Part shown: positions 29,036-32,407 of the stretch, piece after piece | Layout: every line of letters starts with the position of its first letter | Numbering within the stretch: the stretch's first letter is position 1 | From: an uncultured Erysipelotrichaceae bacterium | Lineage (GTDB): Bacteria; Bacillota_I; Bacilli_A; Erysipelotrichales; Erysipelotrichaceae | Length of the DNA: 32,797 nt | Direction: 5' to 3' | Assembly (NCBI GenBank): GCA_944327135.1 | Contig: CALVGQ010000088.1 | Location: 1 to 32,797 of the forward strand | Notes under the pieces: generated by a model | What the model was told of the DNA's origin: nothing | Database searches by the model: none | The model's input: only the letters and a program-made list of their open reading frames with translations | Position numbers and translations under genes: made by a program

Positions 29036-30904
29036 ATGTCACAAGGAAAATTGCAGATTATTACCACCACCGCCAGCAAGGCTTTACCGCTGGAGGGGGT
29101 ATCTTTGTCTGTGTTTGATCCGGTAACGGAAAAAGTTTATGAACTGACGACGGATGCGGAGGGCTATGCCGAAGCGATTTTGATTGACGCTCCGGATCGG
29201 GCTTTATCTCTGGATGCCAGCTATGAGGGAATTCCGTATTCCAAAGTGGATCTGACTGCCTTGAAAGAGGGATTTCAGCAGATTTCCATTTTTGGGATCC
29301 AGATCTTTGCACAGGAAACGGCTTTGATGGAATTGGATATGACGCCGATTGCGGAAAGTCAGTTTCGCACTACGATTATTGAGATTCCAGATAATCAGCT
29401 GGTGAGGACAATGCAGCGCTCCAGCAATGATCATGCCGAGGAAGATCTGATGACTTTTGTCTTGGATTATCCGATCATTCCGAAAACGATCACAGTTCAT
29501 TTGGGAAGGCCTACGGCGAGTGCTCAAAATGTGACGGTGACGTTTAAGGATTATATCAAAAACGTGGCTTCTTCGGAAATTTATCCGACCTGGCCGGTGC
29601 AAAGTTTGCGGGCCAATATTTACTGTCAGATTTCGCTGGCTTTGAATCGGGTCTATACGGAATGGTATCGCAGCAAAGGATATAGCTTTGATATTACCAA
29701 TTCGACTGCTTATGATCAATATTTTGTGTATGGACGGAATATCTTTGAAAGCGTGAGCGTGATCGTGGATGAGATCTTTAATGAATATATCCGAAAGAAA
29801 AACACGATCAATCCGTATTATGCGGAATACTGCGATGGAAGAACCGTTTGGTGCAATGGATTAAAGCAATGGGGGACGGTCTATCTGGCGAATAATGGAA
29901 ACAATGCCTTTGAAATTCTGACCTATTATTATGGAGAGGATATCGAAATCGTCTCGACCGATCGGATCGAAGGGGTAGCTGGATCTTTTCCAGGGATGAA
30001 TTTGAAGGAAGGGGTTCGTTCGGATGCGGTGGCAGTGATTCAAAATCAGCTGAATCGGATTGCCGTGAATTACCCGAATATTCCTACGATCTATCCGGTG
30101 GACGGTATTTTTGGTCCGCAGACCAAGGCGGCGGTCATCACCTTTCAGAAACAGTTTAATCTGACAGCGGATGGCATTGTTGGCAGTGCGACCTGGTATC
30201 AGATTTCCTATATTTATGTCGCTGTGAAGAAACTGGCAGAGCTGACTTCAGAGGGCATTGAGGATCGGCTTCAGTACGAATATCCGGGGACTCCGATCCG
30301 TCAGGGAGATCGTAATGTCTATGTGCAGGAAATTCAGTTTTTCCTGCAGAAGATTTCCTTATTTACCAGTGCTGTTCCTTCGGTGAAGATCGATAGTTCT
30401 TTTGGCAGCAGCACGAAGGCAGCTGTGATGGCTTTTCAGCGGCTGGCGGGACTGAGTGCCGATGGCATTGTTGGCCCTGCAACCTGGAATGCTTTGGTGA
30501 AAGCCTACCGGGATACTTTGAATGTTGCTGTGCCGGATCAAACATTGATGCCGGCCTATCCGGGAACGGCGCTTAGGATCGGCAGTACCGGGGAAAATGT
30601 ACGGATCGTACAAAATGCCTTGAATGTCATCAATCAGGCGGAGGGCAATCTGTCTTTGATTGCCGTGGATGGGATTTATGGCAACGCGACCGCTCAAGCC
30701 GTTCGAAACTTCCAAAGCCGTAATGGTCTAAGCGTCGATGGAGTGGTTGGCCCGGCGACCTGGAATGCCTTGCGGAACCAGTATACTGCGGTACGAGCCA
30801 ATCCGATTGCCTTTTCAGCAATCAATTATGAGCTGTTTGAGATGCTTTATCGCAATTATACCAGCTTGATGTACAACATCGACAACGAAGAGAAAAATCT
30901 GTAA
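29036..30904 (+). CDS. SpoIID-like domain protein with three peptidoglycan-binding domains
   Basis: A 622-residue protein. Residues about 1-105 look like a prealbumin/carboxypeptidase-regulatory beta-sandwich (GVSLSVFDPVTEKVYELTTDAEGYAE). Residues about 160-310 resemble the SpoIID lytic transglycosylase domain; ASSEIYPTWPVQSLRAN aligns with the SpoIID ExxxxxxxEALKAQA region, with E181 the candidate catalytic Glu. Three PG_binding_1 repeats follow (about 325-390, 417-490, 510-580), each with DGIFG-, TKAAV-, FQ- and DGIVGPATW-type motifs. ATG 29036 follows GGAGGTG. No signal peptide, anchor or sorting motif is visible, so export is unexplained. Relatives in clostridia are annotated as spore cortex-lytic-like proteins; a sporulation role here is unproved. 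Confidence 0.82.
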   Translation: MSQGKLQIITTTASKALPLEGVSLSVFDPVTEKVYELTTDAEGYAEAILIDAPDRALSLDASYEGIPYSKVDLTALKEGFQQISIFGIQIFAQETALMELDMTPIAESQFRTTIIEIPDNQLVRTMQRSSNDHAEEDLMTFVLDYPIIPKTITVHLGRPTASAQNVTVTFKDYIKNVASSEIYPTWPVQSLRANIYCQISLALNRVYTEWYRSKGYSFDITNSTAYDQYFVYGRNIFESVSVIVDEIFNEYIRKKNTINPYYAEYCDGRTVWCNGLKQWGTVYLANNGNNAFEILTYYYGEDIEIVSTDRIEGVAGSFPGMNLKEGVRSDAVAVIQNQLNRIAVNYPNIPTIYPVDGIFGPQTKAAVITFQKQFNLTADGIVGSATWYQISYIYVAVKKLAELTSEGIEDRLQYEYPGTPIRQGDRNVYVQEIQFFLQKISLFTSAVPSVKIDSSFGSSTKAAVMAFQRLAGLSADGIVGPATWNALVKAYRDTLNVAVPDQTLMPAYPGTALRIGSTGENVRIVQNALNVINQAEGNLSLIAVDGIYGNATAQAVRNFQSRNGLSVDGVVGPATWNALRNQYTAVRANPIAFSAINYELFEMLYRNYTSLMYNIDNEEKNL

Positions 30905-30908
30905 TAAA

Positions 30909-30926
30909 GGCGGCCAAATGGCCGCC
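30909..30926. terminator. GC-rich hairpin between converging genes
   Basis: Perfect 7-bp GC stem (30909-30915 with 30920-30926) with an AAAT loop. The better tail (TTTATT) is on the minus strand, so it probably ends the acylphosphatase transcript. Confidence 0.6.
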
Positions 30927-30938
30927 TGCATGCATGGG

Positions 30939-31208
30939 TCAATATCGGATAGTAAATCGGTCCTCCTGCTGAAGAGGAATTTCTTTGAGGACATAGTCAT
31001 CGACCCGAATGAACATGTTGCCTTCCTTGAGAATACGAAGGATGTGATCGATGTCTGCGATTGAGCCTTGCAGTTCCATTTCGACTTTTCCGTTTTCCAT
31101 ATTGCGGATCCAGCCGGTACAATGATGCGTGATTGCCTGCATCTGAACATAGGATCGAAATCCGACCCCCTGGACTCGGCCGTCAAAAATGATAAAATAA
31201 CGTTTCAT
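30939..31208 (-). CDS. acyP: acylphosphatase
   Basis: An 89-residue acylphosphatase that hydrolyses acyl phosphates such as acetyl phosphate. The phosphate-binding loop GRVQGVGFRSYV (catalytic Arg near 19) and the Asn-containing strand GWIRNMENGKVEMELQG (catalytic Asn near 36) are both present. Size is typical. The start is preceded by AGAGGCG. It is leftward and convergent with the SpoIID-like gene. No clear promoter was found. Confidence 0.93.
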   Translation of the reverse strand: MKRYFIIFDGRVQGVGFRSYVQMQAITHHCTGWIRNMENGKVEMELQGSIADIDHILRILKEGNMFIRVDDYVLKEIPLQQEDRFTIRY

Positions 31209-31322: not shown

Positions 31323-31350
31323 TTGCATTTGAGGAAATAATGGGTATAAT
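31323..31350 (+). promoter_or_regulatory. promoter of the candidate RNA / lipid kinase leader
   Basis: TTGCAT at 31323-31328 and TATAAT at 31345-31350, spacer 16. The predicted start near 31357 coincides with the first base of the RNA closing helix. Confidence 0.75.
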
Positions 31351-31356
31351 TTAATT

Positions 31357-31457
31357 AGAAGTGGTGCTGTAAGCAACCAATATTATCTTATCCCTTTATT
31401 CATCGGCTTATAGGATCACTTCTACCGGGAGGATAACAGGCAGCTGCCTGTTTTTTT
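31357..31457 (+). ncRNA. candidate structured small RNA or attenuator leader, unassigned
   Basis: An RNA of about 100 nt with its own promoter and terminator. The 5' end AGAAGTG (31357-31363) pairs with CACTTCT (31417-31423). Across a 3x3 internal loop CTGTAAGC (about 31367-31374) pairs with GCTTATAG (about 31406-31413), giving a 15-bp interrupted helix with a roughly 30-nt pyrimidine-rich loop. TTATCC in that loop (31388-31393) is complementary to GGATAA (31431-31436) just outside the helix, a possible pseudoknot touching the terminator base. It matches no riboswitch or housekeeping RNA that I recognise. It may be a free small RNA or a regulated leader of the lipid kinase gene 70 bases downstream. 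Confidence 0.6.
31435..31457 (+). terminator. terminator of the candidate small RNA
   Basis: A 7-bp stem (31435-31441 with 31446-31452) with an AGCT loop, followed by T to 31457. Confidence 0.85.
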
Positions 31458-31525
31458 ATAAAGAAAAGTCTTGAAAAAAGGACTGTTCTTAGATTTTTGA
31501 TTTTAAAGAAAAAAGGGGGTGCGGT

Positions 31526-32407
31526 ATGAAAAAAGGCGTTGTGATTGCGAATATTCGAGCAGGAAGGCAAAAGATCAAGCATCAGCTGGCAGAGGTTTTG
31601 AATTTGCTGAATCAGGCGGGCTATCGCTGTGAAGTATGGATCACCCAGTATCCGCATCATGCGCTGGAGTTGGCAGAGCAGCTTGATCCGATGACGGATT
31701 TGGTGGTGGTCTCGGGCGGAGACGGGACGTTGAATGAAGTGATCAATGGCTTGATGCGTGGAAATTTATCGATCCCATTAGGGTATCTTCCCTCTGGAAC
31801 GACCAATGATTTTGCCACGTCCATGGGGATTGGAAAGGATTGTGTCAAAGCGCTCACCCAGCTTTTGAATGGCTCCGAGGTACAGATCGATATCGGACGG
31901 ATGGCAGAACACTATTTCAGCTATGTGGCTTCCTTTGGCGCCTTTACCGAGAGTGTTTACCATACCGATCAGTCGCTGAAGAATGTGCTGGGCTATGCCG
32001 CCTATCTTTTGGAGGGAGCGAAAAGCATCGTGGATATCCGGCCGGTGAAAATGAAAGTCATCACCGAAGCGCTGACGCTGGAAGAAGAGTATTTGTTTGG
32101 TGCAGTGGCCAACAGCACCTCGATTGCCGGATTTTTGAAGCTGGACCAGCGGCTGGTCAGGATGAATGATGGCTTGTTTGAGGTGCTGCTGATTCGCTGC
32201 CCGAAAGATTTGGCTGAGATTGCCAAGGTGGCCAATTATATCAATCAGCGCAACTACAATAATGAATTTATTCGATTGATCCAAACCTCCTGGGTAAAGA
32301 TCGAATGCAGAAAAAAAGTGGATTGGAATTTTGATGGAGAACGGGTGCCGGGACAAAGGACGATGATGTTTGAGGTCGTTCCGGATGGCTTGCGCTTGCG
32401 AAAATAA
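31526..32407 (+). CDS. diacylglycerol/lipid kinase, YegS/DgkB family
   Basis: A 293-residue lipid kinase of the DAGK catalytic fold. VVVSGGDGTLNEVINGL contains the ATP-binding GGDGT at residues 64-68; PLGYLPSGTTNDFATSMGI is the second conserved loop, and WNFDGERVPG is the C-terminal GE motif. The usual N-terminal NPxSG is replaced by ANIRAGRQK, a mild divergence. In Gram-positive bacteria such enzymes (DgkB) recycle diacylglycerol from lipoteichoic acid synthesis to phosphatidic acid; this role is inferred. The start has GGGGG six bases upstream. Transcription may come from 31323-31350 by reading through the small RNA terminator. Confidence 0.9.
   Translation: MKKGVVIANIRAGRQKIKHQLAEVLNLLNQAGYRCEVWITQYPHHALELAEQLDPMTDLVVVSGGDGTLNEVINGLMRGNLSIPLGYLPSGTTNDFATSMGIGKDCVKALTQLLNGSEVQIDIGRMAEHYFSYVASFGAFTESVYHTDQSLKNVLGYAAYLLEGAKSIVDIRPVKMKVITEALTLEEEYLFGAVANSTSIAGFLKLDQRLVRMNDGLFEVLLIRCPKDLAEIAKVANYINQRNYNNEFIRLIQTSWVKIECRKKVDWNFDGERVPGQRTMMFEVVPDGLRLRK

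Follow-up and report, generated by a model that had tools for sequence, protein, structure and literature searches.

Small pseudoknotted transcriptional riboswitches, among them the preQ1-I type, have a short leader in which the loop of a hairpin pairs with the 3′ tail beside the terminator. Classical attenuators require mutually exclusive folds. In the Firmicutes, small RNAs with C-rich loops are exemplified by the Rsa RNAs of Staphylococcus, which combine a stable hairpin, an exposed UCCC-containing loop and a terminator. For RNA control of a lipid kinase, a literature search gave a single paper, on mammalian RNA switches. Here we describe a promoter-hairpin-terminator element from an uncultured Erysipelotrichaceae bacterium, located in the 317-bp gap between an acylphosphatase gene (minus strand) and dagK (plus strand). 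The element falls outside all Rfam families tested, and neither constrained folds nor the genomes searched revealed a riboswitch-specific feature. Most probably it represents an ordinary terminated leader or small RNA that is specific to its lineage.

The window, that is the whole stretch of 32,797 nt that was analysed, carries the dagK/yegS-type lipid kinase gene at positions 31526–32407 of the plus strand (293 aa; Pfam DAGK_cat, 1e-34, and YegS_C, 2.3e-6). Its ATG start codon at 31526 is situated 68 nt beyond the terminator of the element and its Shine-Dalgarno region AAAGGGGG was read in the sequence at 31512–31519. The acylphosphatase gene (89 aa; Pfam Acylphosphatase, 1.2e-21) is divergent and occupies positions 30939–31208 of the minus strand. 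Farther upstream, a gene for a PG-binding protein ends at 30904. Between this gene and the convergent acylphosphatase gene there is a GGCGGCC-AAAT-GGCCGCC hairpin (30911–30928), which has a T-rich tail on the minus strand only and no T run on the plus strand; plus-strand transcripts of the PG-binding gene may therefore continue into the acylphosphatase gene in antisense orientation. No plus-strand gene lies from the PG-binding gene to the terminator of the element, so this terminator implies a transcript that either starts or passes here.

The predicted sigma-70-type promoter (31323–31350, plus strand) consists of TTGCAT at 31323–31328, a 16-nt spacer and TATAAT at 31345–31350. With an approximate sigma-A matrix, built from general knowledge of the consensus, it came 12th when all 327,570 placements in the window, both strands included, were ranked. 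The −35 hexamer agrees with TTGACA at three of six positions only, which is why a stricter consensus scan did not return this promoter. The expected start is A31357. An earlier note on this DNA had placed the start of this promoter on the first base of the stem, and its coordinates are right, as A31357 is the first paired base.

From this base extends a hairpin (31357–31423, plus strand) whose strands, 31357–31374 and 31406–31423, pair with ensemble probabilities of 0.89–1.0. Of the 18 positions of the stem, 17 are paired and one is a G·G mismatch. The mismatch (31366/31414) separates an outer helix of 9 bp (31357–31365/31415–31423) from an inner helix of 8 bp (31367–31374/31406–31413), which closes a loop of 31 nt (31375–31405). 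Both the closing and the second helix of the earlier note thus fold, but they include two G·U pairs (31364 and 31369) instead of one. The 5′ end of the hairpin coincides with the predicted first base of the transcript, and an 11-nt linker (31424–31434) connects its 3′ end to the terminator. This terminator (31435–31457, plus strand; AACAGGC-AGCT-GCCTGTT followed by T7 at 31451–31457) is canonical, with a 7 bp stem and a 4-nt loop, and was correctly recognized in the note as an ideal intrinsic terminator. Several genomes of the family contain terminators of this type, AACAGGC-N4-GCCTGTTTTTTT or a near variant (here at 31435–31457; elsewhere at L120, L121, L122 and L220). A second hairpin is located at 31461–31490 of the plus strand, between the terminator and the ribosome-binding site of dagK, with a U-rich stretch next to it; its energy of −10.4 kcal/mol was equalled by 1 of 1000 mononucleotide shuffles. 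It is possibly a weaker second terminator or an mRNA-stabilising 5′ hairpin.

For the 104-nt transcript, the minimum free energy is −34.6 kcal/mol (z = −3.9), which none of 200 dinucleotide shuffles reached. The hairpin alone has −22.5 kcal/mol compared to a mean of −8.8 kcal/mol for mononucleotide shuffles (z = −5.2). About 4% of the 67-nt stretches in the window reach this energy or better. A scan for inverted repeats in which 16 of 17 positions pair gave 17 raw matches in the window, forming five clusters including this one; shuffled whole windows yielded between 0 and 14 raw matches each at the same quality. Because comparable energies and inverted repeats arise elsewhere and in shuffled sequence, the hairpin is notable chiefly for its position. 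On the plus strand, the hairpin departs from a perfect palindrome by a G·U pair, the G·G mismatch and a second G·U pair, and the minus strand folds more weakly (−14.9 kcal/mol), which fits a plus-strand RNA. In constrained folds, when the 3′ arm of the terminator was blocked, the 5′ arm found no other partner and the upstream hairpin kept its fold, and the terminator still folded when the 3′ strand of the hairpin was blocked. Since neither constraint altered the other structure, the hairpin and the terminator are independent and no switch is visible.

We tentatively favour a short transcription unit that forms the leader of dagK: it would yield a terminated RNA of about 100 nt, and read-through would express dagK. 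This reading is supported by the strong promoter, whose start is on the first paired base, and by the hairpin and terminator being highly probable and independent of each other. From the promoter, hairpin and terminator, all present as sequence, we infer transcription, termination efficiency and read-through as follows. Transcription would begin at about 31357 and give an RNA sealed at its 5′ end by the hairpin. Most polymerases would halt at the terminator near 31457, thereby freeing a stable RNA some 100 nt long, and the fraction reading through would express dagK, the terminator setting a low basal level. The leader would be constitutive; a regulated switch is neither needed nor indicated. 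Read-through is suggested because the matrix scan found no comparable promoter between the terminator and dagK, where the best placement was TTGAAA-19-TTTGAT at a rank of about 155 with the same approximate matrix. Even so, dagK may itself carry a weak promoter. If the element is only a terminated leader it would be ordinary, but it would explain the absence of a strong promoter specific to dagK.

The leading alternative, which we consider rather unlikely, is an independent small RNA acting in trans, whose pyrimidine-rich loop UUAUCCCUUUAUU would pair with purine-rich ribosome-binding sites and for which dagK would merely be the next gene. Its size, the hairpin sealing the 5′ end, the exposed C/U-rich loop and the terminator would all fit such an RNA, and for three ribosome-binding sites in the window, that of dagK included, the energies of the duplex with the loop lie between −14.6 and −14.9. 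However, the pairing was no better than that of shuffled loops. Against the 28 ribosome-binding sites of the window, a sample of the window rather than the genome, the loop was average (P = 0.30 against shuffled loops). The match of UCCCUUU to the ribosome-binding site of dagK, to which the earlier note had drawn attention, was within chance as well (P = 0.28 and 0.16 in shuffles, 0.11 by duplex energy). The complementarity between loop and Shine-Dalgarno sequences is at chance level and gives no evidence of function. The searches of the order, which yielded no convincing homologue, also count against a small RNA of this kind.

Searches for relatives of the element covered Rfam, the genome itself, the family and order, and mobile elements. 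With Rfam 15 there were no matches in the window at the gathering score; at a lax threshold only streptococcal sRNA and snoRNA models appeared, far below their gathering score (best E = 0.057). No second copy was found in the genome, in which the element is single copy. A covariance model, which was run with strict filters and has limited reach because it was built from one sequence, gave no convincing match among 273 family genomes or 316 genomes of the order. Most of the top matches inspected rested on the common AACAGGC-type terminator; L132 and L135 showed better hairpin-like pairing, but sit within protein-coding genes or at their ends. DNA searches of the order gave short A/T-rich or terminator-like matches only. 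The matches L210–L218 overlap the hairpin but have no matching helix, and several are in open frames. Two of them, L210 and L211 in genome G107, belong to a shared repeated element of non-coding appearance with a 23-mer close to the loop, also without the helix. In the phage and plasmid collections no match to the element was obtained; an exact 16-mer occurs 15 times in IMG/VR, but the covariance model finds no element there.

The search was extended to dagK homologues, of which the genome contigs contained 80 loci with no more than 44% identity. No matching leader was detected near the homologues at 99 loci from the family and GTDB (identity up to 44%). Some homologues of the Blautia group have an upstream terminator, and those inspected mostly follow tRNA genes. 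One relative, G034, has clear synteny in the neighbourhood, with an AdhE 91% identical over the part compared. In the corresponding slot of this genome, the divergent partner of the acylphosphatase gene is a P-type ATPase gene, whose leader resembles a manganese riboswitch and is not this element. That leader (L184, 5966–6125, minus strand) matches the manganese (yybP-ykoY) riboswitch with 17.6 bits (E = 0.0058; gathering score 45) and carries the motif GGGGAGUAGC; judged by its sequence, it is probably a divergent member of the yybP-ykoY riboswitches below the Rfam cut-off. The earlier note had looked to conservation of the helices, and neither Rfam, the covariance model nor the upstream regions of dagK homologues revealed a conserved helix in the relatives searched. 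For the element and its link to dagK, conservation was thus not detected at the level of the family. Because this genome is the sole member of its genus among those compared, this negative result is not a full refutation of the feature.

The lack of detected conservation is in line with the second alternative, less likely again, in which the locus makes no functional RNA: the inverted repeat of the hairpin would have arisen by chance, and the terminator would only shield dagK from upstream run-on. Similar inverted repeats in shuffled windows and the four other clusters in the window agree with it, and the terminator at 31435–31457 might instead halt run-on transcripts from the PG-binding gene, which has no clear terminator on the plus strand. 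However, chance would then have to place within 100 nt a promoter of top rank, a hairpin that begins on +1, G·U pairs specific to one strand, and a terminator.

Lowest among these alternatives, and doubtful, is an attenuator of dagK controlled by a ligand or a protein (a riboswitch or a leader bound by a protein), in which a pseudoknot between loop and GGATAA would be the sensing fold. The earlier note had suggested a small RNA or a ligand-controlled attenuator; the short promoter-hairpin-terminator unit is borne out by the anatomy, but the attenuator is not. The promoter, the structured leader, the terminator, a start codon 68 nt further on and the lack of a better promoter for dagK would suit it, as would a 6-bp complementarity between loop and linker, in which TTATCC in the apical loop (31388–31393) can form six Watson-Crick pairs with GGATAA at 31431–31436. 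Yet the constrained folds of the leader showed no antiterminator pairing and no mutually exclusive folds, the 5′ arm of the terminator staying unpaired, so a riboswitch-type attenuator is unsupported. The complementarity claimed as a pseudoknot does exist, but when both sides were shuffled, six or more Watson-Crick pairs arose with P = 0.067, and with P = 0.45 if G-U pairs were allowed. The energy of the loop-linker duplex (−10.4 kcal/mol) was matched by 11% of shuffled loops and by 1.7% with both sides shuffled. The TTATCC/GGATAA pseudoknot is therefore not significant and within chance, and provides no evidence of function. If formed, it would break no more than two A-U pairs of the terminator, at its base, where GGATAA shares two A's with the stem; sensing via the pseudoknot is conceivable, but would reach no further than these pairs. 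The upstream terminators of the Blautia group, of which those inspected mostly follow tRNA genes, and the lack of an Rfam family or of such a leader near the dagK homologues searched also speak against an attenuator. It is very improbable that the element represents a regulatory RNA of a new class confined to the genus, either a riboswitch or a small RNA, which would control a YegS/DagK-type lipid kinase and combine a long hairpin with a pseudoknot between loop and tail beside the terminator. Were further species of the genus to show compensatory changes both in the helices and in the pairing of loop and tail, this would mean RNA control of a lipid kinase.

Compared to known systems, the element is similar to small terminated leaders and to hairpin small RNAs. 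In outline it also resembles the preQ1-I-type riboswitches, with its short leader and a loop that could pair with the tail beside the terminator. It differs from these riboswitches in the 17-pair stem, the 31-nt loop, a pairing not above chance, the absence of an overlap that would prevent the terminator and the absence of an Rfam match. With 6S RNA (RF00013) it shares a long, imperfect hairpin whose loop is open, but it is about half the length and has no RF00013 match; the 6S gene of this genome is on another contig (C73:26746–26905, 49 bits, over the cut-off). Unlike the Rsa RNAs of Staphylococcus, it has no sequence match in Rfam and a ribosome-binding-site pairing that does not exceed that of shuffled loops, but it shares with them the stable hairpin, the exposed UCCC-containing loop and the terminator.
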